This document shows, piece after piece, positions 835 through 25,802 of a stretch of 64,000 nt of DNA. Origin of the DNA: Nitrosococcus watsonii C-113 (GTDB lineage Bacteria; Pseudomonadota; Gammaproteobacteria; Nitrosococcales; Nitrosococcaceae); the NCBI RefSeq assembly GCF_000143085.1, contig NC_014315.1:3130001-3194000 (forward strand), written 5' to 3'. The position numbers and the translations under genes are program-made. The stretch's first letter is position 1. Every line of letters begins with the position of its first letter. The notes beneath the pieces are model-generated. The model did not search any database and was not told where the DNA came from. It saw nothing but the letters and a program-made list of their open reading frames with translations.

Positions 835-911
835 GGCGCAACCGCTTTAGCTCAGTTGCCGCCAGAGGAGCGCCAACGACATAGGCAGTCAACTGCAGCG
901 ACCTGTTGGGT
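835..911 (-). other. attC site, outer end of cassette block 1
   Basis: The core-like ends GCGCAAC (836-842) and GTTGGGT (905-911) flank an imperfect palindrome containing TTTAGCTCAGTTGCC and TCAACTGCAGCG arms. It directly follows the brnA stop on the minus strand. It is the leftmost attC seen. Beyond it is only the aroC leader. Confidence 0.7.
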
Positions 912-915
912 GCCC

Positions 916-1131
916 TTATTTCCAGGAAAGGTCGGGCTTCCGACCAGCAGCCATGCAATCTCGAAGATACAGATTGATTAAGCTTTGATACGGAATGCCC
1001 GTTTCTTTGGACATGTCTTTAAAATACGTAATGACATCATCCCGCATACGAATCGTGACCTGACGTTTGAGTTTCGCAGCGTAGGGATTTTTTCGAGACC
1101 TCATTTTCGAAAAATCATACTCTTTTCTCAT
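916..1131 (-). CDS. brnA: BrnA-family antitoxin
   Basis: This 71-residue protein starts with ATG at 1131, and its start overlaps the stop of the upstream brnT frame (ATGA overlap). The sequence has a basic N-terminus and then VTIRMRDDVITYFKDMSKETGIPYQSLINLYLRD, shown here by positions of about 25-58, which is the ribbon-helix-helix pattern of BrnA antitoxins. BrnA neutralises the RelE-fold RNase BrnT and represses the shared operon. Its partner here is frameshifted, so it may now be an orphan antitoxin. It sits in an integron cassette closed by the attC at 835-911. Confidence 0.82.
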   Translation of the reverse strand: MRKEYDFSKMRSRKNPYAAKLKRQVTIRMRDDVITYFKDMSKETGIPYQSLINLYLRDCMAAGRKPDLSWK

Positions 1132-1414
1132 GGCATTGGACCTTCATAGTACGCGCGCTCGTTCGAGGTTGCTTTACGAGCCGAGATAAGCCGAATAGAT
1201 TGTCCTTGAGCGCGCTCGCAGTGACATACGACAAGAACGCGTGAGTGGTCGCTTAGTCCTAGCAGGATAAAACGCTCCCAGACCCCGAGTGATCCTCATC
1301 AAAAAACTGGCGCGCGTATTCATCATAGAATACAGATTTCGCCTCTTCGAACGAGACCCCGTGCTTATTAACGTTAGAGTGCGCCTTAGCGATGTCCCAT
1401 TCGAATTCAATCAT
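1128..1414 (-). pseudogene. brnT: BrnT-family toxin, frameshifted
   Basis: Translation from ATG 1414 gives MIEFEWDIAKAHSNVNKHGV, the typical BrnT start, and then the SFEEAKSVF segment. After about residue 45 (near 1278) the frame runs into a stop. The expected continuation (ERFILLGLSDHSR, then ISARKATSNERAYYEG) is present one base out of register, and the span of 287 nt is not a multiple of three. A single-base deletion in a G run (TCTGGGAGCG) explains this. BrnT is a RelE-fold ribonuclease toxin, so loss of the toxin with the antitoxin kept is a common decay path. A sequencing error is the alternative. Confidence 0.82.
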
Positions 1415-1452
1415 ACATACATTGTATGCCGAACCACCAATAGGTCAATATG

Positions 1453-1518
1453 GCGCCCAATGACCAAGCTCAGCGGCCGAAGGCTGCGAGGGAAACCCAT
1501 ATACGCGCCTTGTTAGGC
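1453..1518 (-). other. attC site
   Basis: GTTAGGC (1512-1518) forms one end. The partner end near 1453 is degenerate (GCCCAAT in place of RYYYAAC). The inner arm CCAAGCTCAGCGG matches arms of neighbouring sites. It overlaps the last codons of the ceramidase-like gene. Confidence 0.65.
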
Positions 1519-2289
1519 AGGTAGTGCGTCATGCTTTCCGTTCCATTTTATCACCAGCACGGCCATGGTTAGGCAGCCAGCAGAGGCAAGCAAATGCTTC
1601 AGCGTATGGCCGCTCACAGTTGCGCCAAGCAGTTGGAAGATTTCAGCATCGTAATACTCGACTACTTTCGCCAATACATAGCAACCAAGGGCAATCAGGA
1701 GAAGCCCATTCTGCTCAAAACGCGACCGGTATAGGGTGAGCAGCATTGCAATCATTGTAAGGGGCATGAACTGAACCCAGGCATAGAATCTCAGATCATC
1801 CATGAAATGCCAGTAAACCACTGAACACGCCCCTATCAAAACGGCGGGATAAAGAAGTCTTTGAACGAGGCGCCGATCAAGGTACTCGCCGAGGAGCGCG
1901 ACAAACAAGCTCATGAAACCCACCGTCATCGGGAGTCTGTCCCATACCAGCGTGTCGTTGTCAGGTGCCCAGTGATAATACGCAGACCCGACACCGACCA
2001 ACGATACAGCCATGAAAAACATCAACCAAGCAGGCAGGATGGCCCTGGGCAAGCGGCCTAGCGATACACGCACGCCAAGGATGCCTATCAAGACGAAGGG
2101 CAGATTCGATATAACATCGAAGAAATTAGGAATGCCTAAAAGTGACCGGCGATCAGCAAAGGCATGGTACGCCAGATCCTGCGGGATTGGAGCAACCCAA
2201 AACATCAACGCCATGGTGCCGAAGAAAAATCCAAGAAGGACGGCCAGGCGCCAACCGGTTGCGCCAACGCTCAAAGAATTAGTTTCCAT
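1513..2289 (-). CDS. Ceramidase-like (CREST superfamily) seven-helix membrane protein
   Basis: This 258-residue protein has about seven hydrophobic segments. Conserved polar residues sit where alkaline ceramidase/CREST hydrolases place their zinc site: a GSAYYHWAPDNDTLVWDRLP stretch near residues 103-122 with Ser, His and Asp, and a GHTLKHLLAS segment near the C-terminus with paired His. CREST proteins are intramembrane metal-dependent amide hydrolases. Some bacterial members have no known substrate, so the activity here is inferred. The gene is cassette-borne: an attC lies just upstream (2305-2375) and its stop codon falls inside the downstream attC. Confidence 0.7.
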   Translation of the reverse strand: METNSLSVGATGWRLAVLLGFFFGTMALMFWVAPIPQDLAYHAFADRRSLLGIPNFFDVISNLPFVLIGILGVRVSLGRLPRAILPAWLMFFMAVSLVGVGSAYYHWAPDNDTLVWDRLPMTVGFMSLFVALLGEYLDRRLVQRLLYPAVLIGACSVVYWHFMDDLRFYAWVQFMPLTMIAMLLTLYRSRFEQNGLLLIALGCYVLAKVVEYYDAEIFQLLGATVSGHTLKHLLASAGCLTMAVLVIKWNGKHDALPA

Positions 2290-3577
2290 GGGGCCCGTAA
2301 ATCTGCCTAACGCTTGAAGTAACCGGCGCGAAAAAGCGCAGCATTTTTGGGGTCGGCTGTAGCGCCTTGTTGAGCGCTTTTCTGACCTTCACCAGTTGCT
2401 CCAAAATGGAGGTTTGCCTTGCGGTACACGGTAAGGCCTCTGTTACATAACCCGTCTCTAATCTCCTTGATTCTGAATGGGCTGCAGTCCTTCCGGGTGG
2501 AGAGCCATGCACAATTTCATTTCTCAATTGGGAAATCTTAATCAACTGTTTTCTTTCTTCTTCGGATAAGAAGGCGAGGGATCCACTTTTTATTAGTCTA
2601 TATATCGACGCACTAGTTTTCCTTCCGGACTGATTGATGTGACCAACACCGGGAAATCGCTCATTTAAAAACCATTCAATTGCGGTAACCAAGCCAACAA
2701 GTGCAAGCTCTGGTTCTTTCTGCGCTAATAGCTTTTTCATCGCCATCAATTGGGTGAGAACCTGATCTCCTTTGTTGTACGATGCTTCAAGGAGGCTTTG
2801 TACTCTTCTTCTATTCACTTTGGATTGTGGAAACTGACTCTCACTTGCAATAAAGCCTGCTTGGACAGGTAATGGTACAGAACCACAAGCAACGCGGCCT
2901 GGCGCAATCATGATGAAATAGCCATATAGTTCTTCATGTCTTGGGATTTCTTCAAGATTTCCGATGGAGTAAGCGCTGACGAAATTCTGGAGAGAGTGCG
3001 ATACTTCCGTGGAAAGGCGCCGCGCGACTTCGCCCTGAAATGCTGCTGCACTCAACGGAGTGTACTCGCGCGCATTGGGCGGCAAACTTCCTGACGGCAG
3101 TCGCATCCATCCCAACGATTTCCCAATTACGCCATCATTTAGTCCTTTAGGTGTAAGACGACGAATATACTCATCATACAATTTCGCACGCACATTCCAT
3201 AGACTAATGACAGCGATAACTTGTGTTCCTACACTCTGAGCGATTGTTGTTCGACCTTTAAAAGTTTCGCCATGTTTGTGGCGCGCTAAGAACTTCCCAG
3301 AAAGATCGATTTCAAATGTTACTGGCTCACAATGAAAGTCAACAACAACACCTTCTCTCCAGCCCCTGACTTTGAAAGGTGATGAATCGACGTTTATTGG
3401 AAAAGGGAGCTGGCAGAAACATGCGACTGCTGTGGAGCCGTAGTGCTCAAGATATTCAGCCCATCTGCACAATAGATCTTCAGATGCCGCTCCAATCTCA
3501 ATGAGATGAGATAAGAACGACGACCGTTGGCCCGGCTCAGCTGGATTCATCGCTTCAATGTCGTTCCAGTTCCACAT
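2279..3577 (-). CDS. Cassette-encoded protein with HEPN-like C-terminal region
   Basis: This 432-residue protein starts with ATG at 3577. I do not recognise the first 280 residues, which are mixed alpha/beta without signal peptide or membrane helices. Residues of about 290-375 contain an ALVGLVTAIEWFLNERFP helix and then KISQLRNEIVHGSPPG, the R-N-x-x-x-H signature of HEPN/ApeA-like domains, many of which are RNases in toxin or defence systems. The last 30 or so residues (the RKALNKALQPTPK tail) are translation through the attC at 2305-2375, a common by-product in cassettes. Its role in defence is an inference from the HEPN motif only. Confidence 0.6.
   Translation of the reverse strand: MWNWNDIEAMNPAEPGQRSSFLSHLIEIGAASEDLLCRWAEYLEHYGSTAVACFCQLPFPINVDSSPFKVRGWREGVVVDFHCEPVTFEIDLSGKFLARHKHGETFKGRTTIAQSVGTQVIAVISLWNVRAKLYDEYIRRLTPKGLNDGVIGKSLGWMRLPSGSLPPNAREYTPLSAAAFQGEVARRLSTEVSHSLQNFVSAYSIGNLEEIPRHEELYGYFIMIAPGRVACGSVPLPVQAGFIASESQFPQSKVNRRRVQSLLEASYNKGDQVLTQLMAMKKLLAQKEPELALVGLVTAIEWFLNERFPGVGHINQSGRKTSASIYRLIKSGSLAFLSEEERKQLIKISQLRNEIVHGSPPGRTAAHSESRRLETGYVTEALPCTARQTSILEQLVKVRKALNKALQPTPKMLRFFAPVTSSVRQIYGPHGN
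2305..2375 (-). other. attC site
   Basis: GCCTAAC (2305-2311) and GTTGAGC (2369-2375) bound a palindrome with CTTGAAGTAACCGG and GTCGGCTGTAGCGC arms. It lies inside the 3' end of the HEPN-like frame, so that protein's last 25 or so residues are attC-encoded. Confidence 0.8.
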
Positions 3578-3588
3578 CCTCTTTCCTC

Positions 3589-3651
3589 GCCCAATGCTAA
3601 AGCTCAGTTACCGCCGCGACAGTGGTGGTCAACTGCAGCGCCTTGCTGGGG
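3589..3651 (-). other. Degenerate attC site
   Basis: GCCCAAT (3589-3595) and GCTGGGG (3645-3651) flank an AAAGCTCAGTTACCGCC / GTGGTCAACTGCAGCGCC palindrome that closely resembles the attC at 835-911. Both core ends have drifted from consensus, so it may no longer recombine. Confidence 0.55.
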
Positions 3652-3767
3652 TGCGAATTCAGTTGAAACATAACCCATTGCCTCGGGCACGGCAAGATTG
3701 CACTATCATATGCAGTTTTTCTTCCTGGAAAAGTGCCGATTCATTTTGCATCACAGCGAAATATGCG
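3652..3767. other. Very short cassette without a convincing gene
   Basis: These 116 bases lie between two attC sites and carry no open frame of useful length on either strand. On the minus strand, TTGCCG followed after about 17 bases by TTATGT could act as a promoter for the 432-residue gene downstream. Promoter-only cassettes are known in integrons, so this is a plausible but unproven role. Confidence 0.4.
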
Positions 3768-3833
3768 CCCTAACGACTAGGCATGAGGGGCCACGACTGA
3801 AAGGAGCGGTCCCACTCCATGCCCTTGTTAGGC
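3768..3833 (-). other. attC site
   Basis: CCCTAAC (3768-3774) and GTTAGGC (3827-3833) are both good core matches. The body holds an imperfect palindrome (GGCATGAGGGGCC / GGTCCCACTCCATGCC). Confidence 0.8.
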
Positions 3834-4043
3834 ACTTTGTCTTTTAAGGGTAACCGATAAAGGTTGTTTTCCTTTTAAAGCACTCACCTTCAACACAGAA
3901 AAACCAATAATATTGCCTTGTTCATCGACTTTCTCCATGATCGCATCGTTTTCTGTTTCCTTAAAATAACCTTTCTTATGCTCAAAGATAACTTCGAGAT
4001 AATCTCCCTCTTCATCAAACCAAATAGTTACATCCTTTTCCAT
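3828..4043 (-). CDS. DUF2283 family protein, probable antitoxin
   Basis: This 71-residue protein begins MEKDVTIWFDEEGDYLEVIF, the characteristic start of the DUF2283 family, followed by acidic residues and a TENDAIMEKVDEQGNIIGFSVL core. DUF2283 proteins are small, often sit beside RelE/BrnT-like toxins and are regarded as antitoxins. Its start overlaps the end of the upstream toxin-like gene by about 16 bases, so the pair is one operon inside a cassette. The antitoxin role is inferred from family and pairing. Confidence 0.78.
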   Translation of the reverse strand: MEKDVTIWFDEEGDYLEVIFEHKKGYFKETENDAIMEKVDEQGNIIGFSVLKVSALKGKQPLSVTLKRQSA

Positions 4044-4342
4044 AGAATCTCACCTCGTTTCACTCTGTCAGTGAAGTAAGCTGTGATGATGAAGTGATCG
4101 CTTTCTAAGCTCTTCACCACGATACATAGATATTTCTCTGTCACCGGAGTGGAATGATAAAATTTATAAAAGAGTTCAGCCAACGAATCTGTCCTAGAGC
4201 GCACAACTTTATCAGGACTAGCGAGTGTTTCGCCTACGCGTCGAATTTGCCCTTTCATCTCTGGATGAGCAGATTCCAGATGCTGCCGCCTTTCATCAGT
4301 TAACCGGATGCTCCTTTTATTAAAATCCTCTAGTACAGCCAT
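4028..4342 (-). CDS. Toxin-like nuclease of the PBECR/RelE-like type, partner of DUF2283
   Basis: This 104-residue protein has LTDERRQHLESAHPEM near residue 14, a central SLAELFYKFYHSTPVTEKYLCIV stretch and a C-terminal FIITAYFTDRVKRGEILW. The layout fits small BECR-fold RNases (RelE, BrnT, PBECR2-like): a conserved His near the start, a central aromatic strand and a terminal TAY/Arg strand. It overlaps a DUF2283 gene, supporting a toxin-antitoxin unit. The exact family is from memory and not searched. Start is ATG 4342, just after the attC at 4362-4405. Confidence 0.65.
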   Translation of the reverse strand: MAVLEDFNKRSIRLTDERRQHLESAHPEMKGQIRRVGETLASPDKVVRSRTDSLAELFYKFYHSTPVTEKYLCIVVKSLESDHFIITAYFTDRVKRGEILWKRM

Positions 4343-4361
4343 ATTATCAATCGCTCATAGT

Positions 4362-4405
4362 GCCTAACGCCTGAGCTCACGGGCGCGTGCAGCGAATTGT
4401 TATGG
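4362..4405 (-). other. Short attC site
   Basis: GCCTAAC (4362-4368) and GTTATGG (4399-4405) enclose only about 30 bases with CCTGAGCTCAC and GTGCAGCG arms. It is the shortest complete attC in the array. Confidence 0.72.
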
Positions 4406-4765
4406 TGCATCTGCGACCTGCGCACATTGTTGGATTGCTTCGCCCGAGGTGCCACCTTCCAAGTGACGAAACAGCGTGCCTGATGCGCCTTCTCCGCTGC
4501 CTTTTGTCCACCATTCCAGACGCTTGCCTACATAGCGTGCTCCGCTCCCCGAGACCGCAATTTCCATTTGGAGTCGGTGGTCGTCGTATTCCACGACGGC
4601 TGTACTGTCTGTGGGATATGAAACCATGATTGTCTTCCCACTTTCACACTGGTACTTGAAGGACAAGTCTGCATCGCTAGACTGCTCCGTGGACGCGGTG
4701 CCATCAGTCGATGGTTGCCCGCAAGCGGACAGGAAGACAATAAGAACAATAGACACTAAACGCAT
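4400..4765 (-). CDS. MliC/PliC-type lysozyme inhibitor lipoprotein
   Basis: I place the start at ATG 4765 because a strong AAGGAGG ribosome site lies 11-17 bases upstream. A longer frame to 4804 has no such site. The protein begins MRLVSIVLIVFLSACG, a lipoprotein signal peptide with lipobox LSAC. The mature part has a Tyr-x-Cys-x-x-Gly strand (FKYQCESGKTI), then SGSGARYVGKRLEWWTKG, matching the membrane-bound C-type lysozyme inhibitor fold. Such proteins protect Gram-negative cells from host or competitor lysozyme at the outer membrane. It is cassette-borne, flanked by attC sites at 4362 and 4792. Confidence 0.8.
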   Translation of the reverse strand: MRLVSIVLIVFLSACGQPSTDGTASTEQSSDADLSFKYQCESGKTIMVSYPTDSTAVVEYDDHRLQMEIAVSGSGARYVGKRLEWWTKGSGEGASGTLFRHLEGGTSGEAIQQCAQVADAP

Positions 4766-4791
4766 GGTATTTCTAACCTCCTTAAATTGCG

Positions 4792-4852
4792 GCATAACGG
4801 CCAAGCTCGCCAGGGCCGCGTTAGCGGCCTCCGGTGCAGCGCAGAGTTAGGC
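4792..4852 (-). other. attC site
   Basis: GCATAAC (4792-4798) and GTTAGGC (4846-4852) flank a GCCAAGCTCGCCAGG / CCTCCGGTGCAGCGC palindrome with a central GGCCGCGTTAGCGGCC hairpin. Confidence 0.78.
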
Positions 4853-4872
4853 ATCTACTGCTGTGACAGTGG

Positions 4873-5100
4873 CTACTTGGCGAGTTCAGGAACATGCTCT
4901 TCCTCATAACGTTCGATTAGCACCCCCACAATCTCCATCAGCGAAGCTAGCGGGTGCGCCTCGTCTTCTCCGACTTCATCGATCAAACTGTCAAGGAATG
5001 AAACCAGCCGCTCGTACTCTTCCTCCGTGTGCGGTACGTAGATCATTCTGGCCATCGGTGGCCAAGCATTGAGTGCCTTGTCAACTTCGATAGTTTGCAT
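4873..5100 (-). CDS. higA: HigA-like antitoxin, short form without visible HTH
   Basis: This protein has about 75 residues, starting at ATG 5100 behind GAAGGAG. It has the YERLVSFLDSLIDEVGEDEAHPLASLMEIVGVLIERYEEEHVPEL core, given here as residues of about 29-73. That is the N-terminal dimerisation part of HigA antitoxins. The usual C-terminal XRE helix-turn-helix is absent because the gene ends just before the attC. It follows higB with 2 bases between. Antitoxins of this short form may still bind toxin but should not bind DNA by an HTH. Confidence 0.75.
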   Translation of the reverse strand: MQTIEVDKALNAWPPMARMIYVPHTEEEYERLVSFLDSLIDEVGEDEAHPLASLMEIVGVLIERYEEEHVPELAK

Positions 5101-5102
5101 AC

Positions 5103-5390
5103 CTACTCCTTCCACTTTCCCTGATTGTACTCCGCGTGTGTAAGCACCGCCCGGATGTAGAGCTTGCGACGATTGTAATGAATGGCTGCGATCAAGCGCA
5201 CTTTGTTTCTGCCAATGTTGAAGACGGTCAGCATCCCGACCTGATCGGCGGAAGGAAAATGCTCACGCAGCTCCGCAAAGGAGCTAAAATTGTGCCGCTT
5301 TACCGCTTTGTACCAATAAGCTAATGCCGATCGAGTCTCCGGGTACTTGCCGACGAACATATTAAGGCGTTTGCGTGTAATGATGTGCAT
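5103..5390 (-). CDS. higB: HigB-type mRNA interferase toxin
   Basis: This 95-residue protein has the HigB order: an N-terminal helix pair (YPETRSALAYWYKAVKRHNF), then FNIGRNKVRLIAAIHYNRRKLYIRAVLTHAEYNQGKW. The GRNKVRLIA strand and the C-terminal THAEYNQG loop are the conserved active-site region of the HigB/RelE fold, which cleaves ribosome-bound mRNA. The toxin-first order with HigA downstream is normal for this family. A related second pair lies at 7098-7858. Confidence 0.87.
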   Translation of the reverse strand: MHIITRKRLNMFVGKYPETRSALAYWYKAVKRHNFSSFAELREHFPSADQVGMLTVFNIGRNKVRLIAAIHYNRRKLYIRAVLTHAEYNQGKWKE

Positions 5391-5438
5391 GTCCGATGTT
5401 AACGCCTCTTGCCCTGACAGAACAACTTCAGAGGAGCC

Positions 5439-5499
5439 GCCTAACGCCGGGAATCAGCAGCGCGCCGTCAGGCGCGTCCGCTACATTGACTTGTTGGGC
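5439..5499 (-). other. attC site
   Basis: GCCTAAC (5439-5445) and GTTGGGC (5493-5499) flank a GCGCGCCGTCAGGCGCG hairpin-rich body with GGGAATCAGCAGC and GCTACATTGAC arms. Confidence 0.76.
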
Positions 5500-5551
5500 A
5501 ATCACTGCTCCAACATGGATTGGAGTGAGTAAAAAAGGGGGATGGATACCC

Positions 5552-6622
5552 TCAAAATGGTGCTTTCTCAGCCCTGTGAAACCTATCCGTGACATTCCCA
5601 CTCAGGCCGGTATTGTCCGGATTCAGCACCATTACCGATGCACCTGGATTCAGATCAAACTTCATAAGATCTGCCCAGATCACATTCGGTGCAGTCGTCA
5701 ATTCAAAATAGTAACGCTTGATGTTGAGATCGATCACTGTACGGTACTCAGTATTATAAATACCAAAGCTCTGGTAGGGCGCACCAAATGGCACCGATAC
5801 ATTGCGCATAATGGATAGTATAGAAGCGACTTCCTCGCGTTCGTTCTTTGGCTTGGGTAACAGTGCCGAGAAATAAGACGCCCGCTGGAAACGATCCGTA
5901 GCACTGACATTACCGGGTAACGGGGTGTTACTGCTTGGATGAGCGAAATCAACCTCTTTTTTCATCTTCTGCAGCAACGCGAGTTGCTGGTCGTAGCTTG
6001 GATCGTTGGTCATGACCCGATATTGGCGGCCATGATGAATGACTAACTTGCCGTTAATGTACTCGAGGATAGCAGAATCACCCGTGGCATCTTCCAAGGC
6101 CAGGTGAACCGTGGCCTTATGTCCGTGCATCTCGACCATCACCGGCTGGATCTTCTTGAGTAAGGCCAATGCTTGAGCAACTGTCGCCGTATTGTCCAGT
6201 GCATACTGCCCCCATAGACCAGTCTGTACACCCGGCTTGCTGGGATCGCGTGGCCCAAAATCCGTACTTTTGAGGTACAGCATGTGAATTGCCAGCCCGG
6301 CTTCATTAAAGCCGTCAGCGGTGCCAATGCCGTAAACCGGGACCACCATACTGGCATATTTGGATGTCCACTTGGCTGGGTTCACCTTGACCGCAGTCTC
6401 CGTGCCAAGGAGGCCCCCATCCCGTTTCATTCCACGTGGAAATACCACGATCTCCGGCTGGGTAGACTCCGGCCAGTCCATCGTCCTTCCCACCACGACG
6501 TTCAGCCCGCTGTCGTTCCAAAGAACACGCGTACAGGCATCAGCAGCCTGCAAGAAGACAAATCCCACAACCACGAAAATAGCTGCACTTGCCACGGTTC
6601 GGTAAATCATCTGTCGCTTCAT
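5552..6622 (-). CDS. Exported Ntn hydrolase of the choloylglycine / penicillin V acylase family
   Basis: I place the start at ATG 6622 because a GGAGGG site lies 7-12 bases upstream. The longer frame to 6814 runs through an attC. The 356-residue protein has a signal peptide with cleavage near VFLQAADA, leaving Cys as the new N-terminus (CTRVLWNDSG). That N-terminal Cys is the nucleophile of this family. Further family marks are GRTMDWPES, the GLAIHMLYL segment and VMTNDPSYDQQLA. Members hydrolyse linear amides such as bile-salt conjugates, penicillin V or acyl-homoserine lactones. The substrate is not clear here, and quorum-signal cleavage is a possibility. At 1.07 kb this is one of the longer cassette genes. 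Confidence 0.85.
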   Translation of the reverse strand: MKRQMIYRTVASAAIFVVVGFVFLQAADACTRVLWNDSGLNVVVGRTMDWPESTQPEIVVFPRGMKRDGGLLGTETAVKVNPAKWTSKYASMVVPVYGIGTADGFNEAGLAIHMLYLKSTDFGPRDPSKPGVQTGLWGQYALDNTATVAQALALLKKIQPVMVEMHGHKATVHLALEDATGDSAILEYINGKLVIHHGRQYRVMTNDPSYDQQLALLQKMKKEVDFAHPSSNTPLPGNVSATDRFQRASYFSALLPKPKNEREEVASILSIMRNVSVPFGAPYQSFGIYNTEYRTVIDLNIKRYYFELTTAPNVIWADLMKFDLNPGASVMVLNPDNTGLSGNVTDRFHRAEKAPF

Positions 6623-6692
6623 TGTATGCCCTCCTTTGGTGAGAAAACGATCGTTGATGACTTCGGCCGGCAGACAGCACCGGTCGTTTGAA

Positions 6693-6764
6693 GCCCAACG
6701 CTTGAGCTCAGGGGCCGGCAGCCCGCGTAACGGGTTGGCGGTCGGCTGCAGCAAATTGTTGGAT
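6693..6764 (-). other. attC site
   Basis: GCCCAAC (6693-6699) and GTTGGAT (6758-6764) flank CTTGAGCTCAGGGGCCGG and a GTCGGCTGCAGC arm. The central hairpin is GCCCGCGTAACGGGTTGG-like. Confidence 0.74.
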
Positions 6765-7001
6765 CTCATATTTTCTGCCACGCTGATTGTTAAATATAGC
6801 GAATGCGATGCCACTGATTAATAAAGGTGCGAGAAATAGTGGCCTCTCGGACAAAGTGATGGGGCTCCCCCAAAGTGCTAAGCCACAAAAAACCATAGTA
6901 ATTGAGCTGGCTAAAGATGCGCCTTTCCAAGCAGTGAATGCAGCCAAAGGCACTATTAAGAACCATCATAAAGACCGCAGGTGTGAATGGAGTATCACCA
7001 T
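6708..7001 (-). pseudogene. Small cassette-encoded membrane protein with an in-frame stop
   Basis: Reading from ATG 7001, the frame gives MVILHSHLRSL, then TGA, then continues in the same frame as a hydrophobic protein with three or four membrane segments (LIVPLAAFTAWKGASLASS, ITMVFCGLALWG, LFLAPLLISGIAFAIF) and a basic tail. The stop therefore truncates what looks like one coding unit of about 75 residues before the attC. Alternatively translation starts at GTG 6953 inside the first helix. I do not recognise the family. Confidence 0.5.
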
Positions 7002-7031
7002 TAAGGCTATGAGAGCTGATATGCCAGTCGA

Positions 7032-7103
7032 GACCTAAGCGGTGATTCGGAGTACCCTTTTTTTTATATGCGGTCAAACGTCATCTACAGCGATTTGTTA
7101 GGT
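7032..7103 (-). other. attC site
   Basis: ACCTAAG (7032-7038, last base off consensus) and GTTAGGT (7097-7103) flank a body with an eight-T run. The CTACAGCG arm is shared with neighbouring sites. Confidence 0.65.
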
Positions 7104-7547
7104 CCGCCCAAAAAACACCGCCGGGCTTACGCCGAAACGGCCTGATAGCTTGGCAATATGCTCTTTAGTAAGCGATCGCTGCCCAGACAAAATCATAGAC
7201 ACCAAAGACTTAGAGCCTATTTCTTCACGCAGCCCAGATGCTCCTAGCGCATGCTGCTCCATAAGCAATCTTAATGCTGAAACACCAGGATCAATACCTT
7301 CAGCCTTCTTGTGGAACCGAACTAACTTGTCCTGTTTTGATTCATACTCCTCAACAGCGCCAGCCAGTATCTTGATGAGGTCATTCAACGGATCTAATCT
7401 AGAATCTTCTGCTTCGGTCATGAGTTCTTCAATCAGATCCAGCGTTTTCTGATAGTCACGCTTGTTGCGGATATGGATAAAGCGATGGGCTGTTTGGGAA
7501 AAATGAGAAAAACTATCAGCCACTTCCCGATATTCGGTAGCAAGCAT
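7098..7547 (-). CDS. higA: HigA-type antitoxin with XRE helix-turn-helix
   Basis: This 149-residue protein has an N-terminal acidic dimerisation region (LIEELMTEAEDSRLDPLNDLIKILAGAVEEYE, about residues 39-70) and a C-terminal XRE-like HTH: SALRLLMEQHALGASGLREEIGSKSLVSMILSGQRSLTKEHIAKLSGRFGVSPAVFF at about residues 90-146. It is the complete version of the short HigA at 4873-5100. ATG 7547 overlaps the toxin stop, so the pair is translationally coupled. It binds HigB and represses its own operon. Cassette-borne. Confidence 0.88.
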   Translation of the reverse strand: MLATEYREVADSFSHFSQTAHRFIHIRNKRDYQKTLDLIEELMTEAEDSRLDPLNDLIKILAGAVEEYESKQDKLVRFHKKAEGIDPGVSALRLLMEQHALGASGLREEIGSKSLVSMILSGQRSLTKEHIAKLSGRFGVSPAVFFGRT

Positions 7548-7858
7548 TATAATTCTCCTTTGAGGTATCTTGAGTTCAACCTGTCGTATTCGGCATGCGT
7601 CACGATATGCTTCACGTAGACGCGTTGATGTACAAACTGAATTACAGCGATTAGGCGCAAATTATTGCCACCCATATCTATGACCCACCAACGCTTCTTG
7701 TACTTAAAGTTGTCCAATGATGGGAAAACCATTCTAAGCTCAGATGAGCTGGGAAAACTGCCCTGCCGTAAGACGTTGTACGTATCCATAATCGACTGTC
7801 GGTCATTCGGATATTTCTCAGCAGCCTCGCTAAAGGGTTTCTTAGATATGACGTGCAC
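7547..7858 (-). CDS. higB: HigB-type mRNA interferase toxin
   Basis: This 103-residue protein most likely starts at GTG 7858 (HVISKKPFSEAAEKYP). The central RWWVIDMGGNNLRLIAVIQF and the terminal YVKHIVTHAEYDRL match the HigB active-site strands and the same THAEYD loop as the toxin at 5103. It is followed directly by higA. TA modules of this type are frequent in large integron arrays, where they are thought to stabilise cassettes. Confidence 0.87.
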   Translation of the reverse strand: MHVISKKPFSEAAEKYPNDRQSIMDTYNVLRQGSFPSSSELRMVFPSLDNFKYKKRWWVIDMGGNNLRLIAVIQFVHQRVYVKHIVTHAEYDRLNSRYLKGEL

Positions 7859-7936
7859 GCCAATCCCATAAGTTCACTATAAGTGAACACTAACACAGCC
7901 ACCGACCATTGACAATATATGGCCATCGCGATGCGC

Positions 7937-8012
7937 GCCTAACGACTAGCGTAACCGGCCGGCTTTTGAGCGCCAGCGGAAAAGCCGGTCCGCATTGACG
8001 CTTTTGTTAGGT
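7937..8012 (-). other. attC site after the first cassette
   Basis: GCCTAAC (7937-7943) and GTTAGGT (8006-8012) flank an unusually strong palindrome: GCGTAACCGGCCGGCTTTTGAGCG pairs with CAGCGGAAAAGCCGGTCCG. The same arms recur at 21121-21197. Confidence 0.85.
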
Positions 8013-8039: not shown

Positions 8040-9254
8040 CTATTCACGTTTTGCCTTAAACTTCGGTAGGTCGCGAGCCAGCTTCAGGTGTGCCTGCCCT
8101 GTTATTGTGAGATGCTTTGTTCCCCTTTTTACAAGGGCAAAAGCTTCCGGACTGTAGCAGATTACCCTCAGTTCCAAATCAGTGCGCTTGCTGCTCATGT
8201 AAAGAAGCATATTAGCTCGTTCTTCGGGGCCAAGTTCCCGTCCGATCATTAGGACATAGCCTACAGCGAAAGTGAATTTCTGGGGCCGCCCATCTGTTGC
8301 CCTGTTATGATAGGATTCATAGTCGAGAGGATCGGACAGTACAAAAAGAGGAAACTTAACGTTGGATCGACCGACTCTTATTCCATCAACGGCAAGTTCA
8401 ATCGTCGTCGACAAATCATCCTCTATTATTAAAACCGCATGCAGCAACTTGGGCTCCGACCAATCAATAAGCCGATCGCAATCGACGCGCCCCCAGACTC
8501 CTTGAAGTCCAGAGACAAAAAAACTTGGCATCAGCCTGGCATTTAGCGACATGCTGATTCGCATTTCGCTACCCTCATACCGGGAGTCAAATAGGTAATT
8601 GACGTCTTGAACAGCATTCGATTCCTGCTCGGGAATTACCACAAGCGCATAAATCTCAAACTCAACGACAGACCTAAGCAGCTGGCGACCTGCAGCCAGT
8701 GTTGCTTCGCTGATCTGAACAAGCAAATTTGCTAGGGGCTGCGTGTTCATGGGATTCAGTGTCATCAACGCCGCAAAATCCTCGGGGATCCTGCTCGCGT
8801 AATGTGCCCCGCCGGCCTTGTTCGCATACCATTCGATGATTTTTCTAGGGGTATAACGAGCACCCTTAAACAAAATGAGATCTTGGTCGAGAAACTCGTT
8901 CAGGAGTATCGCTTTCTGTGCAGGAAACTGGCGCTCTAACGAGACGGGGAAGCCAGTTACATGTAATATGAGATCTGCACGAAGCTCCTCCGGGAAAGCT
9001 GGATCCTCTACTCCGGGCATGGAGTAGATCATTAAACCCTTTCCAAACTTATCGGCGACATCAAGTAATAGCGGAACTTCTCCCTTTCTGCGTTCAGCAA
9101 CCAGGGAACGCAGCTGGCCAGATAACACCATCAGGTAGCGACCTTCTCCTTCTCGAACTTTTTGGATAGATTCCGCGATTAGTTGCAAGCCCTGCAAAAG
9201 CTCTACGGTTCGGACCGCAAAAGGCTTTCCCAATTCTCTATAGGGTCGACGCAT
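8040..9254 (-). CDS. Unrecognised 404-residue protein in the attI-proximal cassette position
   Basis: I do not recognise this protein. It is soluble, with no signal peptide or membrane helices. Visible features are a charged N-terminal helix (VELLQGLQLIAESIQKVREGEGR), a HVTGFPVSLERQFPAQKAILLNEFLDQDLILF segment near residues 98-130, and a beta-rich second half with alternating hydrophobic strands (LHAVLIIEDDLSTTIELAVDGIRVG). It starts at ATG 9254 with an AT-rich leader and no strong Shine-Dalgarno sequence. It lies next to the intI relic and is followed by an attC, so it occupies the most recently inserted cassette position. Confidence 0.6.
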   Translation of the reverse strand: MRRPYRELGKPFAVRTVELLQGLQLIAESIQKVREGEGRYLMVLSGQLRSLVAERRKGEVPLLLDVADKFGKGLMIYSMPGVEDPAFPEELRADLILHVTGFPVSLERQFPAQKAILLNEFLDQDLILFKGARYTPRKIIEWYANKAGGAHYASRIPEDFAALMTLNPMNTQPLANLLVQISEATLAAGRQLLRSVVEFEIYALVVIPEQESNAVQDVNYLFDSRYEGSEMRISMSLNARLMPSFFVSGLQGVWGRVDCDRLIDWSEPKLLHAVLIIEDDLSTTIELAVDGIRVGRSNVKFPLFVLSDPLDYESYHNRATDGRPQKFTFAVGYVLMIGRELGPEERANMLLYMSSKRTDLELRVICYSPEAFALVKRGTKHLTITGQAHLKLARDLPKFKAKRE

Positions 9255-9387
9255 GATTTCTCTTGAAAATTAACTCTATAATAGGCACCCTAAAGCTATA
9301 GAATTCATTATTAATATAATTATACAACTTTAGATTCAATAATTTATTCATTATTCTTACAAAATAGGTACCCCAAATCTAAAGATA
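9255..9387. promoter_or_regulatory. AT-rich intergenic segment, probable former attI and divergent promoters
   Basis: This stretch is very AT-rich and lies between the minus-strand first cassette and the plus-strand integrase relic, exactly where attI sits. On the minus strand GTTAATT (9268-9274) is a near match to the core GTTRRRY about 14 bases upstream of the cassette start codon and is a candidate attI/cassette junction. The promoters cannot be resolved by eye. Confidence 0.45.
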
Positions 9388-9581
9388 ATGACGTCCTCAT
9401 CTCCCCAAGCTCCAAAATCACTCGCTCAAGTGCGGTATAAGATCCGTCTAAAACACCTACAACATTCGCATGGGATAATTTTATGTGGGCTGGATTAAAC
9501 GCTTTATTCTCTTTACACGGTAAATTGGAGATGGATGTCCAAGAAGCCGAAGGGTTTTTAACTCATTTAGAGAACCTCTGA
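9388..9581 (+). pseudogene. intI: Integron integrase (IntI) N-terminal relic
   Basis: No long frame exists, but stitching frames recovers an IntI-like N-terminus. ATG 9388 gives a segment with KSLAQVRYKIRLKH. A shifted frame gives YNIR and then YVGWIKRFILF. After one extra A, the third frame gives HGKLEMDVQEAEGFLTHLENL, ending at a stop at 9581. This order (QVR-x-K-I-R-x-KH, Y-V-x-W-I-K-R-F-I-L-F-HGK, E-A-E-x-FLTHL) is the SAM-like DNA-binding region of integron integrases. The catalytic tyrosine-recombinase part is missing, replaced by IS5-type debris. Orientation is divergent from the first cassette block, as expected. Confidence 0.75.
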
Positions 9582-9742
9582 TCATTCTCCGCAATATTTC
9601 GCCCGTTACGAATTGATACCATAAATTTTTCGTGCATCCGGGGAATGCTGCACCACATCGGCCATTTTCTGGTCATTTCGGCCTACTTGCAAGTACACTA
9701 CGTCTGTACCTGCCGCAACAGACATGCCGCTTCATTGCCCAG

Positions 9743-9925
9743 TTTTCAGCATCCGCGCTAGACTGATCAGCCGATGGCCGCCATCCTGTGGATTGGGGTA
9801 GTACGGCGTCAGCTCTTTGGCTAAGGCCCGCCGGAGGTTATCTGCTCCATCTCCTCCAGAAAACGTTCCTTGCGAGTCTTTTTGCTATGCTTATCGAATC
9901 CGCCGCTGAAGCTTTTCTGGCGCAT
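9743..9925 (-). pseudogene. IS5-type transposase relic (N-terminal part)
   Basis: From ATG 9925 on the minus strand the sequence reads MRQKSFSGGFDKHSKKTRKE and RFLEEMEQI, then after a frameshift LTPYYPNPQDGGHRLISLARML. These match the beginning of IS5-family transposases (MRQKTF ... KKTRKE-x-FL-x-EMD; YYP-x-P-x-x-G-x-R-x-P-x-x-L-x-RML). It then breaks down in several stops. Bases 9582-9742 hold further unreadable debris. Its position suggests that insertion of this element truncated intI. Confidence 0.65.
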
Positions 9926-10008
9926 AGGCTTGTTCTGGCCTGATAATTACGGGCATTATTTTATGGTGAAAAAATTAATCGGACCATCCTTAAATTAAGC
10001 GGGGTATT

Positions 10009-10476
10009 ATGCGGCTTTGGTCATTGCACCCTCAATATCTTGATGCTAAAGGCTTGGTTGCCCTATGGCGAGAGGCACTGCTGGCACAAGCTGTTTTGGC
10101 AGGTTTAACTCGTGGCTATAAGCATCATCCACAGCTTGTTCGTTTTAAAGAAACTGGGCAGCCCAGAAATTATATCGCCTCTTACTTGCAGGCCGTACTT
10201 GTTGAGGCTTTCCGTCGCGGCTATCGCTTCAATGGAGGAAAAATCAATCAACCTGGCTCTGCTGGAGCGCTGCTAGTCACGAAGGGCCAGCTAAATTATG
10301 AGTGGACACACTTAAAGAATAAACTCCAATTCCGCGATCCCTCTTGGCTATTCCAGTTTCAAGGCGTTACGATACCTAAACCGCACCCGTTGTTCCAAAT
10401 AGTGGCTGGTCCGGTTGCGAGGTGGGAAGCTATCTCTGCCCAACAGAGCACTCAATCTGGCCGCCTTAACCGCTAG
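10009..10476 (+). CDS. Pyrimidine dimer DNA glycosylase (T4 endonuclease V-like)
   Basis: This 155-residue protein starts MRLWSLHPQYLDAKGLVALW and continues LAQAVLAGLTRGYKHHPQLVRF, the signature of the Pyr_excise family related to T4 endonuclease V. These enzymes remove UV-induced pyrimidine dimers by glycosylase/AP-lyase action using the N-terminal amine. The conserved HPxYLDxxGLVALWRE segment is intact. It starts the non-cassette segment between the two IS5-type relics and is followed by a clear terminator. Confidence 0.83.
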   Translation: MRLWSLHPQYLDAKGLVALWREALLAQAVLAGLTRGYKHHPQLVRFKETGQPRNYIASYLQAVLVEAFRRGYRFNGGKINQPGSAGALLVTKGQLNYEWTHLKNKLQFRDPSWLFQFQGVTIPKPHPLFQIVAGPVARWEAISAQQSTQSGRLNR

Positions 10477-10530
10477 GGCAGTTAAGGTTCCTTCCGCTAC
10501 CTTTTTACTTAAAAACTGAAACCACAAAAA

Positions 10531-19947: not shown

Positions 19948-19985
19948 CCCTTATTTTATTCATTAACACTTCTCCGGAAGAAGGC

Positions 19986-20043
19986 GGCTAACGCCGGAAT
20001 TCAGCGTTGCGCGTAGCACATCCACTGTAGCGACTTGTTAGTG
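19986..20043 (-). other. attC site
   Basis: GGCTAAC (19986-19992) and GTTAGTG (20037-20043) flank a GCCGGAATTCAGCG / ATCCACTGTAGCG palindrome around a GCGCGTAGC loop. Confidence 0.72.
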
Positions 20044-20083
20044 CTTCTTCTGCTGTGCACGTACTCATCGGACAGTTACCTAA

Positions 20084-20350
20084 TCATTTAAGGTGTTCGG
20101 CGACATCGTAGAGGGTAGTAATAGCCTTGGTCATGGCACGTTCTTACAGCTTCCGAGTAAGGCGCAAGGCCGTCTTGATATCACTGGCCTGTGAATGCTT
20201 GTCACCTCCAGCTAGTAAAATAATGACCTTTTTGACTTGCTTTTTGTAGTACGCCCAATAGCCGGATCTGTAATCAATCCGCAACACCTTCCACCTACAA
20301 GCTTAACATCTCTATATCGAGCGACTATTGAAGCCTTCAATGGTATGTAG
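20084..20350 (-). pseudogene. RelE/HigB-like addiction toxin and antitoxin stub, decayed
   Basis: A minus-strand frame gives VLRIDYRSGYWAYYKK and VIILLAGGDKHSQASDIKTA, then LRLTRKL and a stop at 20144. That is the C-terminal half of 'addiction module killer' proteins (Gp49/RelE-like). The N-terminal half is missing or scrambled, with stops upstream. Immediately after, MTKAITTLYDVAEHLK (20084-20134) is the start of the partner antitoxin, cut off by a stop after 16 codons. Both halves of the pair are thus broken. It lies in a cassette between attC sites. Confidence 0.7.
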
Positions 20351-20440
20351 TAACATTTTTATTTACACCGAAATATCGGGTGGATCACAATGGCCCGGGA
20401 AACCGGCCCCGAATACGATGCAGAAGATAGGTGGGCAGTT

Positions 20441-20722
20441 ATGAGCAAGCGCTTCCTGAGGTGGGCTGAGACTTGGATCGAGGAAAACATCCCTCCCGGC
20501 GCCAATACCGACATCGAGAGCCACAAAGCGCGGGCAAAGCGGCTGATGGAGAAAATGTTTGCCGAGGCGGCCGCAGCGAACTTCTCAGACTTCGAGACCG
20601 AGGAGGAGTGGGAGCGCATAGCGCCCCAGGTTCTGGCCGCGGTCTCGGACGAGACCGATTTCGACTACGATGCCTTTACGCTCAAGTATCTACTGGCTCA
20701 GGAAACTGAAGACGGCGACTGA
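20441..20722 (+). CDS. Small acidic protein, DUF768-like, opposite strand to cassettes
   Basis: This protein has about 93 residues from ATG 20441 (MSKRFLRWAETWIEENIP); a longer frame starts at 20390. The pattern of Phe-Leu-x-x-Trp near the N-terminus, a central Arg/Lys-rich helix (HKARAKRLMEKMFAEAAAANFS) and Glu-rich C-terminus resembles the DUF768 family known from rhizobia. Function is unknown. It is the only plausible plus-strand gene in cassette block 2 and is GC-richer than its neighbours. It could be an inverted cassette or an independent insertion. Confidence 0.5.
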   Translation: MSKRFLRWAETWIEENIPPGANTDIESHKARAKRLMEKMFAEAAAANFSDFETEEEWERIAPQVLAAVSDETDFDYDAFTLKYLLAQETEDGD

Positions 20723-20847
20723 GACCCGCCATCCAACTCACTCACACCGGCTCACCAACGTACTTAAGTATGGCCCATAGAAAACTTGAATCAATGGGGA
20801 TCTGACCCCATTTTTTCAACTGGCAAGGTAGCTCGTCCTATTTTTGT

Positions 20848-20938
20848 GCATAACGCCTTGCATCAGGGGCGCATTTGTAGCGAAGGCGAAGCGAAAGAGG
20901 CACGGCCGGGCCGGAACATCCTTGAGCACTTGTTATGC
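20848..20938 (-). other. attC site
   Basis: GCATAAC (20848-20854) and GTTATGC (20932-20938) are perfect inverted cores. The 91-base site has a long GC-rich body with a GGCCGGGCCGG segment. The repeat GTAGCGAAGGCGAAGCG lies within it. Confidence 0.78.
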
Positions 20939-21120
20939 TATTTGCTGTCCTTCAAAGAGAAGCCGAGAAGATAACGTGTCACGTTCCACTACAAGTCTAA
21001 TGCCCAGTCAAGTCGCGATCTAGTAGATTGATGATATTCCAAGAAGATCCATCCCCCTTCAACTAAACGACGAATAACATTTCGTTCTTTCCTGCTAAAT
21101 TTTCGCCTTGTTATCCTGAA
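20939..21120 (-). other. Short cassette, possible small ORF of about 40 codons
   Basis: Between two attC sites, a minus-strand frame runs to a stop at 20989 and reads TRRKFSRKERNVIRRLVEGGW, then IFLEYHQSTRSRLDWALDL. It is open from about 21114, but no ATG, GTG or TTG leads it in frame. An ATG exists one frame away at the cassette boundary, suggesting a frameshift or a cassette-fusion start. Function is unknown. Confidence 0.35.
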
Positions 21121-21197
21121 ACATAACGCTTATCTTAACCGGCCGACTTTGGAGCGTTAGCGGAAAAGCCGGCCCGAATCGAAGCTTGTTGTTATGC
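21121..21197 (-). other. attC site
   Basis: ACATAAC (21121-21127) and GTTATGC (21191-21197) flank arms TTAACCGGCCGACTTTGGAGCG and AGCGGAAAAGCCGGCCCG, nearly the same as in the attC at 7937-8012 of block 1. Confidence 0.82.
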
Positions 21198-21199
21198 AA

Positions 21200-21418
21200 T
21201 TACTGATGCGCCACTGGACGAAGTTCGTAGATACGGCCATATCGAGAGGCCGCATCCAAGTTGCCTTGCCGAAGTGTATCTCGTACAGCGTCCAGTTTGT
21301 ATGCATCCTCGACGCTCAAATAGGGGGACCATTCCGTTTCGTCCTCAATCAGCGTCACTGCTACCTCCACCACATATTTTCCTTCATGCACGTACTTCGT
21401 CTTCATACGCCGTGTCAT
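21200..21418 (-). CDS. Small protein, likely antitoxin-like partner, unknown family
   Basis: This protein has about 72 residues from ATG 21418 (MTRRMKTKYVHEGKYVVEV), with GAGGCGG upstream and inside the preceding gene's end. The core is LIEDETEWSPYLSVEDAYKLDAVRDTLRQGNLDAASRYGRIYEL (residues about 23-66). I recall near-identical small proteins in many cassette and genomic TA-like pairs, usually second in a two-gene operon. DNA binding is not evident, and the antitoxin role is inferred from the arrangement. Confidence 0.6.
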   Translation of the reverse strand: MTRRMKTKYVHEGKYVVEVAVTLIEDETEWSPYLSVEDAYKLDAVRDTLRQGNLDAASRYGRIYELRPVAHQ

Positions 21419-21420
21419 AA

Positions 21421-21549
21421 TCACCGCCTCTTCGTGAATGCTTTGTTCCATCGCTCAGGGTCTGGCCTATAAGCAGTGACCAAGACCACAGGCTTGTCAT
21501 AGCCCCTCGGGATTCTCCATACAACATAAATAATGAATTCGCTCACCAT
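21421..21549 (-). CDS. Short toxin-like partner, apparently reduced to its C-terminal half
   Basis: The open frame extends to 21669, but its first 40 codons are translated attC (21587-21667). The real start is probably ATG 21549, or GTG 21546, behind GGAGG. The product has about 42 residues: MVSEFIIYVVWRIPRGYDKP and VVLVTAYRPDPERWNKAFTKRR. The VVWRIPRGYDKPVVLVTAY strands look like the second half of a RelE/BrnT-like toxin. It may be a truncated toxin cut when the cassette formed, or a naturally short protein. It is 2 bases from the downstream gene. Confidence 0.5.
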   Translation of the reverse strand: MVSEFIIYVVWRIPRGYDKPVVLVTAYRPDPERWNKAFTKRR

Positions 21550-21586
21550 ACCCTCCGGTTCTGCCAACGCGGTGAACACTGCATAA

Positions 21587-21667
21587 TGCCTTACATCACT
21601 GGCAGCGATAAGCAAAGCGAGGAACGAGCGTTGCTTATCGCTATCCAAGTGAATGTGACTGTTAGGC
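21587..21667 (-). other. attC site with a perfect central hairpin
   Basis: GCCTTAC (21587-21593) and GTTAGGC (21661-21667) enclose a perfect inverted repeat GCGATAAGCAA / TTGCTTATCGC with a 15-base loop. It overlaps the end of the DUF2157-like gene. Confidence 0.72.
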
Positions 21668-22576
21668 ATTTTCTTTCATTTTTGAATTTATACTCCGGAG
21701 CCCCACTGCAAATGCCAAAGCAAGTAAGCCAGCCACAAGCACGGCTCCTGGGGAAGCTCCTAAATGCTCAAACCATTGGGTATAAAAATGAATACCACCA
21801 AAAGCAGCAACCGTATTCAAAACCCACCTGCGGCTACCCTTCCATGACCATATTGCAGTTGCCAATAAAGCTAGAGCCCAGAGAAAAGAAAAGACGGTAT
21901 CTGATATAAGGACTTCTCTTGCCTCAGAACGCTCACCCCAAAGAGAACCCACCCAAAAACCGAAATTGACAAAGAATACTCCTGCTCTTGCCGATGCAAT
22001 TGCAATCTTTTCATATTCAGCTGAAAGTTTCTTAGATAAGTGATAAAGGCCGATTGCTAACAGGCTAAATAGAATAACTGTAATAGTCGGCTCTTGAATT
22101 ACCAGGAAGTAACTCGCATGAAAATAACCGGTTCTTGCCCCGATACTGGCAGATAACATTAATGTAGCGAGAACAGCCAACAAAGTGCTTCTGGCAAAGA
22201 TTGCTGCCACAGTAAATATTGCTGTCACAGATAGAATGGATAAGAAACTGCCTTTGAATTCGGTTACGACTCCACCACCTGTCATCAGTGCTCCAACCAA
22301 GATACAAATATTGGAAAGAACCCTCCATTGCTCCCAGCCGCTACGCAGTAATGCCAAACCGGCGATAAGGATGAATAATCCAATTACAATTGCAGTTGTT
22401 GGTGCCGGAAGAAGGGCAAGAGAGGCCCCACTAACAGCAATAACGCTCAATCCAATCAATATATTAAAAGCCAGTGATCTCGTGGATTTCGCAGCTAGCT
22501 CACTAAGCTTGTTGTACTCAATCTGAGTAATCTCTCCTTCACTGAGTAATTGATCTAGATCTAACGTTACTTTCAT
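21662..22576 (-). CDS. Multi-helix membrane protein, DUF2157-like
   Basis: This 304-residue protein begins MKVTLDLDQLLSEGEITQIEYNKLSELAAKS, a short cytoplasmic region typical of DUF2157 proteins, followed by about nine hydrophobic helices from residue 36 to the end. The function of the family is unknown. It is unusually long for cassette cargo. It starts at ATG 22576, just after the attC at 22593, and ends inside the attC at 21587-21667. Confidence 0.65.
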   Translation of the reverse strand: MKVTLDLDQLLSEGEITQIEYNKLSELAAKSTRSLAFNILIGLSVIAVSGASLALLPAPTTAIVIGLFILIAGLALLRSGWEQWRVLSNICILVGALMTGGGVVTEFKGSFLSILSVTAIFTVAAIFARSTLLAVLATLMLSASIGARTGYFHASYFLVIQEPTITVILFSLLAIGLYHLSKKLSAEYEKIAIASARAGVFFVNFGFWVGSLWGERSEAREVLISDTVFSFLWALALLATAIWSWKGSRRWVLNTVAAFGGIHFYTQWFEHLGASPGAVLVAGLLALAFAVGLRSINSKMKENA

Positions 22577-22592
22577 CAGAAGTCCTTTTTAT

Positions 22593-22665
22593 GCCTAACA
22601 CCTGAGCTCACCTGCCGCTATGGAGCGCCAGCGGAATAGCAATCAGGTGGAGCGCCTTATTAGGT
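22593..22665 (-). other. attC site
   Basis: GCCTAAC (22593-22599) and ATTAGGT (22659-22665) flank CCTGAGCTCACCTGCCGCTATGG and a CAGCGGAATAGCAATCAGGTGGAGCG arm. It is nearly identical to the attC at 25730-25802. Confidence 0.82.
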
Positions 22666-23077
22666 TGATTTACAGTCATTTTGGTAGATCCCGCATCGCT
22701 GCTTTCCACAGCGGCTCTTTCATTTCCAGATGCTGCTTCCACTCTTGCTTAAGCGTCTTGCGCCACTTGAGATAGGCGGGAATGGACGGGATCAGAGGTG
22801 TATGGGCAAGCTCGAAGTGTATTCCCGTAAACGGATCATCAAAAAACACTGCGTAGTAGCCGGGCGTGTAGGTAGGGTATTCTGTTGGCGCATCGGTAAC
22901 ATTGACATCGTTTGCCAACAGAAATTCTTGGTGGAAGCGGTCTACTTCACGACGATTTCTTGCCCATAGCGCAAGATGATGGATCCCCGGCTTTTTATCG
23001 GCATGTCGAACGATCTCGCCGCCTGCGGCAGGCTGAATACCGATGTAACTGTGAAAGAATGGGAACCGCGCCATGTA

Positions 23078-23979
23078 TAGTTATTTCATTTAATTATGGG
23101 ACATGTTATGCTTTAGCATGACTTATTCACTTGATTTGAGAGAGGCCGCGCTCTCGTACATAAAAAACGGCGGCAGTAAGGTTGAAGCATCCCGTCTTTT
23201 TGGTTTTTCCCGCTCTACTCTATACAGATGGCTTGATATGGAAGATTTAACCCCGAAAATTCATGGTTCGAGAGATCGCAAGATTGATAAAGAGGCTTTA
23301 AAGAAACATGTTAAGGACCATCCCGATATGTTCTTGCATGAGCGTGCTGAGATTTTTGGCGTTGCTGTGAGCGGAATGCACTATGCGCTCAAGCGCTTGG
23401 GCATCGTAAAAAAAAGAGCGCGGGTATAGCGAGCGCTGTACTATGAAAAGGCAGGAGTATTTGGAAAAGCTCCGCGCCGAGCATCGCATGAGGGGCTTTA
23501 AGAACCTGATTTACATTGATGAGACTGGCTTTGATGCGCCTTGCTATAGAGATATGGGCTGGGTAACAAAGGGGCAAAAAATTCTTGGTCTTGTGAGCGG
23601 AAAACGCAAGCGCAGAACCAATCTGATCATGGCGCAACGTCACAATGCATCGGGACGTCAGAAAAAATGGCTGGCTCCCATCCTTTTTGAAGGCTCATGT
23701 ACAGCAGCTCTTGTGGAAACATGGATTGAGCGATGCCTGATGAAAAAGCTGGATGAACCCACCATCATCGTCATGGATAACGCCAGCTTCCACAAGCATA
23801 AACGTATTCAGAAGTTCGTGGCGCCGGCTTATCACATGGTCATACCATTGCCGCCTTACTCGCCAGACTTTAACCCCATAGAAAAAACATTCGGCGCCAT
23901 GAAAAAAAGGAGAAAATCCATCCCTCAAAACACAACAATCGACCAACTTATATTGTCTTATAATTCAATGAAATGACTA
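23078..23979 (+). mobile_element. IS630-family insertion sequence, about 902 bp
   Basis: The ends are imperfect inverted repeats of about 26 bases: TAGTTATTTCATTTAATTAT at the left and, reversed, TAGTCATTTCATTGAATTAT at the right. They are flanked by TA on both sides (23076-23077 and 23980-23981), the target duplication of the IS630/Tc1-mariner group. The element contains the transposase in two frames. It interrupts the VOC cassette gene in the opposite orientation. Confidence 0.9.
23118..23976 (+). CDS. IS630-family transposase in two overlapping frames
   Basis: The first part (from ATG 23118, MTYSLDLREAALSYIKNGGS) carries the helix-turn-helix (KVEASRLFGFSRSTLYRW) and ends at a stop at 23429. 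The second part carries the DDE catalytic domain: YIDETGFDA, MDNASFHKH and PPYSPDFNPIEKTFG give the D-D-E residues. The frames join near 23412-23427, where a run of eight A and then CGGGTAT occurs. A +1 shift there gives KRAR-YSER and so on. This may be programmed frameshifting, as seen in some IS630 elements, or a one-base insertion that has inactivated it. Confidence 0.82.
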
Positions 23980-24143
23980 TAATAGATGGAACGATACCCC
24001 ATATCGAGCGTCCAGAAACTCTTATATCCAAGCCATCCAAACATCTTGTCAAAGAAAGCAATCGACTCGTTGTAGTCGAGTACCGACAGCTCAACATGAT
24101 TAATGCCCTTCCATCTCATTCGATACTCTCCCTTTCTGTAACC

Positions 24144-24219
24144 ACCTAACGCCTAAGCTGAAGGACGTTTTGCCGTACGCCAGCGCGGTAAAATGTCCCG
24201 CTCAAGCGCTTTGTTATGT
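24144..24219 (-). other. attC site of the reverse transcriptase cassette
   Basis: ACCTAAC (24144-24150) and GTTATGT (24213-24219) flank a GCCTAAGCTGAAGGACGTTTTGCCG / GCGGTAAAATGTCCCGCTCAAGCG palindrome. The RT frame reads through it and stops in the distal core. Confidence 0.82.
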
Positions 24220-25545: not shown

Positions 25546-25550
25546 AACGA

Positions 25551-25577
25551 CAAAAGGCCCGATCTAGGACCGGGCCT
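25551..25577 (-). terminator. Strong terminator hairpin 5 nt before the RT start codon
   Basis: On the minus strand AGGCCCGGTC-CTA-GATCGGGCCT forms a stem of about 10 bp with a three-base loop, followed by TTTTG. The RT ATG (25545) comes 5 bases after the T run, with no Shine-Dalgarno sequence. This would release the upstream RNA as a separate transcript and throttle RT expression. Confidence 0.75.
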
Positions 25578-25712: not shown

Positions 25713-25729
25713 TGGCTCGGGTTAGGTAC

Positions 25730-25802
25730 ACATAACGCCTGAGCTCACCTGCCACTATGGAGCGCCTGCGGAATAGCGATCAGGTGCAGCGTATGGTTAG
25801 CC
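25730..25802 (-). other. attC site upstream of the reverse transcriptase cassette
   Basis: ACATAAC (25730-25736) and GTTAGCC (25796-25802) flank CCTGAGCTCACCTGCCACTATGG and a GCGGAATAGCGATCAGGTGCAGCG arm. It sets the RT cassette's 5' boundary at about 25734. It is the downstream attC of the BrnTA cassette. Confidence 0.83.

Follow-up and report, generated by a model that had tools for sequence, protein, structure and literature searches.

About one-third of integron integrase genes (intI) were pseudogenes in one survey, and more than one-fifth of integron-bearing lineages carry more than one intI (Nemergut et al. 2008, PMC2426708). In Xanthomonas, intI is truncated or absent in most strains (PMC12444791). 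CALINs, clusters of cassette genes with two attC sites or more and no functional integrase near them, have been proposed to be degraded integrons, and a functional IntI can mobilise them in trans (PMC12444791). Our literature search combining Nitrosococcus with integron returned no paper on Nitrosococcus integrons, judged by title and abstract.

The 64-kb window (the whole stretch of Nitrosococcus DNA analysed here) very probably contains, at 9364-9580, what is left of the integrase gene of a chromosomal integron; the array of this integron, extending leftward from about 9270, is now a CALIN, or pseudo-integron, beside a nonfunctional relic. As in a complete integron, an attC array is present and the integrase lies in the divergent orientation, but the gene itself is a relic. 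With at least eight attC sites at 836-8012 and no functional integrase beside them, the locus is a CALIN, although, unlike in the described ones, an integrase fragment is still recognisable at the expected place. It also resembles the intI pseudogenes and pseudo-integrons surveyed previously (PMC2426708, including those of Xanthomonas, PMC12444791), in which intI is broken by frameshifts, stops or truncation and the genomes often carry more than one intI, whereas the relic described here is more decayed, with only about a fifth of the gene (about 217 bases) remaining.

The integrase remnant

The relic corresponds to about the first 70 codons of an integron integrase, distributed over three frames of the plus strand. 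The initial annotation had recognised it by four peptides (QVRYKIRLKH, YVGWIKRFILF, HGKLEMDV and GFLTHL), all of which were found in the three plus-strand frames from 9388. When the DNA was aligned with intact integrases, frameshifts being permitted at a cost, the intact IntI of the same genome gave one collinear match through its residues 1-64 with a score of 122. The IntI in locus L042, which comes from another bacterium of the class, matched 9364-9569 with a score of 150 and identities in 39 of 72 columns; it was chosen among the best matches to the relic itself, so that its score is somewhat selected, unlike that of the own-genome IntI. For comparison, the maximum score was 51 among 1000 dinucleotide-preserving shuffles (mean 30.8, sd 4.0) and 50-51 elsewhere in the window, both strands included.

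At the DNA level, a genus-wide search with 9255-10000, which does not depend on any reading frame, agreed with these alignments and matched the 5' ends of intact intI genes of two other species, with identities of 91% at 9482-9514 (33 bp; G001 and G003) and 71% at 9421-9523 (103 bp; G003). Moreover, the relic read through its frameshifts matched the integron integrase models TIGR02249 (positions 2-54, E 9e-7) and PRK15417 (E 9.7e-7) in NCBIfam as well as PF13495 in Pfam (E 5.5e-6), and by TIGR02249 and PF13495 it retains an N-terminal SAM-like domain of the IntI type; its score falls under the whole-protein cut-off of TIGR02249 because it is a fragment. At E values up to 0.01, NCBIfam returned nothing besides integron-integrase models and no XerC/D model. 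The identification as an IntI relic was thus borne out, and no better match to an unrelated gene, which the initial annotation had named as a possible refutation, appeared among these models. The proposed start at 9388 needed correction, as the feature begins about 24 bases earlier, where the alignment to L042 reaches 9364.

The probable original start codon at 9364, which is aligned to the start methionine of L042, is now ATA, and the same alignment places the ATG at 9388 inside the gene. The relic contains +1 frameshifts near 9457 and near 9515, a premature stop (TAA) at 9476 and an in-frame deletion of 9 bases (three codons) near 9525; homology to L042 ends at 9569, and the last frame is open until about 9580. 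With two frameshifts, a stop and truncation at about codon 70, the tyrosine-recombinase catalytic domain is gone. The IntI-specific additional region is gone as well, because of which the relic is classified as the remnant of an IntI gene and not as an IntI. The integrase gene has lost its probable start codon and acquired two single-base frameshifts and a stop, and truncation after about codon 70 has removed the catalytic core together with the IntI-specific region, the order of these inactivating events being one that we infer. Promoter and terminator scans around the relic gave no match.

The cassette array and its junction with the remnant

The attC sites of the array all lie on the minus strand, and the array points away from the relic. 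They were called with a covariance model of our own, built from seven aligned sites that share the attC pattern, at 7937-8012, 6693-6765, 5439-5499, 3589-3651, 2305-2375, 1455-1518 and 836-911 (the last found at the far array end), and these sites match it by construction. Outside the model-building set, the model also recovered an attC at 3767-3833 (23.9 bits), a short attC-like site at 4362-4405 (model R1, 32.8 bits), a weaker site at 4792-4852 and a second cluster at 19984-25802, as well as sites in other genomes of the genus, some of them beside intI genes. As single strands, two sites folded clearly better than chance, namely 7937-8012, the best-folded site of the array (z -4.7), and 6693-6765 (z -2.4). 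The remaining sites did not, a result that would fit decay of older attC sites but does not prove it.

The site at 7937-8012 belongs to the first cassette, whose gene (8040-9254, minus strand) is an ORF of 404 aa that had no match in NCBIfam, Pfam or PADLOC and was not found at the DNA level in three other genomes of the genus. In addition, cassette genes of the array encode two HigB-type toxin-antitoxin pairs, a member of the choloylglycine-hydrolase family, a lysozyme inhibitor resembling MliC and several unknown proteins.

The gap that separates the array from the relic, with the first cassette gene starting at 9254 and the relic at 9364, is comparable in magnitude to the intI-attI spacing of intact relatives, whose apparent attI core, judged by eye, lies about 130-260 bp from the intI start, with cassettes running the opposite way. 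The arrangement of a classical integron, which had been claimed from position and orientation, is thus seen here, with the relic divergent from a genuine attC array at a comparable spacing. A living IntI would insert circular cassettes at attI, which would lie between 9254 and 9364, and would excise cassettes through recombination of folded attC sites. No convincing attI site was found between the relic and the first cassette gene; a candidate degenerate core, GTTAATT at 9268-9274 (minus strand; consensus GTTRRRY), is only suggestive, being an imperfect sequence match in a position similar to that of the attI cores of the relatives, at a plausible, slightly shorter distance.

The second attC-like cluster, also on the minus strand, has sites at 19984, 21121, 22593, 24144 and 25730, and ordinary chromosomal genes lie between it and the first array; an integrase was not noticed alongside it. 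It contains a reverse transcriptase gene (24146-25545, minus strand) that matches the Drt9 defence model of PADLOC (E 6e-151 and 4e-38) and is split by a frameshift near 25192. With an attC-like site (24144-24219) at its 3' end, this Drt9-type gene appears to be a disrupted defence gene borne by an integron cassette. As well, two overlapping ORFs in different frames at 23103-23976 (plus strand), inside this cluster, resemble, on visual inspection of their translations, an IS630-type transposase.

Comparison with the sister species and other integrases

The sister species genome G002 has most of the array and both flanks at about 88-97% identity. A segment of about 2308-3768 (minus strand), apparently two cassettes, is missing in G002, and the junction falls inside the CCTAACG core common to the attC sites at its two ends (2305-2375 and 3767-3833). 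At the attC 7937, the genomes diverge just past the same core, so that the cassettes nearest the integrase end differ between the window and G002. Whole-cassette junctions within an attC core are the footprint expected of an IntI, and these differences therefore indicate that an IntI has acted on the array; they give indirect support to the idea that its attC sites can recombine when an IntI is provided. A further difference is less clean, since G002 also lacks 234 bp that take in much of one toxin gene and are not flanked by attC cores at both ends.

No IntI remnant was detected at the G002 locus by frameshift-aware alignment, the maximum score of 33-44 being background. The flank common to both genomes begins at about 9655 and is strongly conserved from 9747; its diverged part (9655-9746), which in G002 comes directly after that genome's own first cassette gene, shows where the integrase deletion ends on the right. 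The G002 counterpart of 9655-9746 (L032:18711-18780) overlaps the 5' portion of an ORF with an attC-like site at its end, and the unknown product of this ORF is probably a membrane protein. Across the relic from the array, a Pyr_excise-family gene is located at 10009-10504 (plus strand). In the corresponding stretch of G002 (L032:19138-19669), the gene precedes a complete attC-like site in the plus orientation (about 103 bp, 35 bits), of which the window keeps only the first part, and the gene may be an inverted cassette. A contig search with its protein found homologues only outside the genus, and a scan of genome contigs, a collection that may omit own-genome neighbours, found no relatives of the relic. 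The search for intact loci in sister strains, as the initial annotation had suggested, thus gave no orthologous locus with an intact intI, neither in the contig searches nor in G002, which has no intI trace at this place.

The genome consists of a main contig of 3,328,570 bases and two small ones, and related intact IntIs with attC cassettes exist both in this genome and in the genus. An intact IntI of 327 aa is encoded at C1:70943-71881 with attC cassettes of its own, about 260 kb from the array if the chromosome is circular; a near full-length intI pseudogene is found at C1:2117612 and fragments at C1:1085142. Like the locus described here, the intact integron combines a divergent intI with attC cassettes and has a related integrase, but its cassettes are different and its IntI shares only about 58% identity with the relic across 60 aligned residues. 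The relic scores equally well or better against IntIs of other bacteria and looks like a separate lineage, not a recent duplicate of the intact IntI, although 60 decayed residues do not suffice to build a tree. The statement that the array lost its own integrase is supported, with the addition that the genome keeps an intact integron elsewhere.

G002 carries two frameshifted intI copies that are 99.2% identical over 626 bp (loci compared: L029 at G002:C2:83000-90000, L028 and L020). One of the frameshifted genes adjoins the flank that, in the window genome, borders the intact, different IntI, as if the integrase at one locus had been replaced. Programmed frameshifting was considered for the frameshift shared by the two copies and was rejected, because duplication of one broken gene is simpler given their near identity.

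Origin of the locus and its meaning

That the stitched frames give a mere chance resemblance is scarcely credible: stitching by eye does inflate likeness, but an alignment in which stitching is allowed still scores far above the shuffled sequences and the rest of the window. Descent of the fragment from another tyrosine recombinase of the Xer or phage type, sharing the N-terminal SAM-like domain, is very improbable. Such an origin could be imagined because PF13495 occurs in various integrases and the IntI-specific region is not kept in the relic, but the NCBIfam matches were confined to integron-integrase models, a Xer-like recombinase fragment of the genus scored 25, which is background, and the top-scoring genome loci (L041-L043) encode IntIs in which the IntI-specific region is present.

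Less improbable than these, but still unlikely, is that the relic is a true IntI fragment that arrived separately, and that some other IntI of the cell, such as the one at C1:70943-71881, put the array together in trans as a CALIN. The genome does hold this intact IntI and two further intI pseudogene loci, the relic appears to be of a different lineage from the intact IntI, and one attC of the array has close relatives elsewhere in its own and other genomes. On the other hand, the position, orientation and spacing of the relic are those of an integron's own intI, which would be unexpected for a random arrival. The preferred reading of a former real integron, also proposed by the initial annotation, is thus supported by the alignment scores of the relic, by family matches to IntI only, by the attC array, by the spacing, by the species differences at attC cores and by the related intact IntIs of this genome and the genus. 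Against it count the lack of a convincing attI site, of a promoter and of an orthologous locus with an intact intI, the loss of the IntI-specific region on which the strictest family assignment depends, and the 234-bp difference from G002. We infer that the relic's own IntI built the array, and another IntI could have assembled some of the cassettes.

Degradation to a pseudo-integron or CALIN is a common and well-documented fate of integrons, and the locus fits this pattern. It is conceivable, though less likely than not, that the array is still active, its cassettes having been exchanged in trans after the decay of its own integrase by the IntI of another lineage elsewhere in the chromosome; the attC-core differences between the species are compatible with such exchange and do not date the events. 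If the array was exchanged in trans, one integrase would serve several integrase-less arrays. Finally, intact, frameshifted and nearly vanished integrases side by side in one chromosome provide a comparable example of integron decay, and the genus could be a natural series for studying how integrons die and whether orphan arrays remain active.
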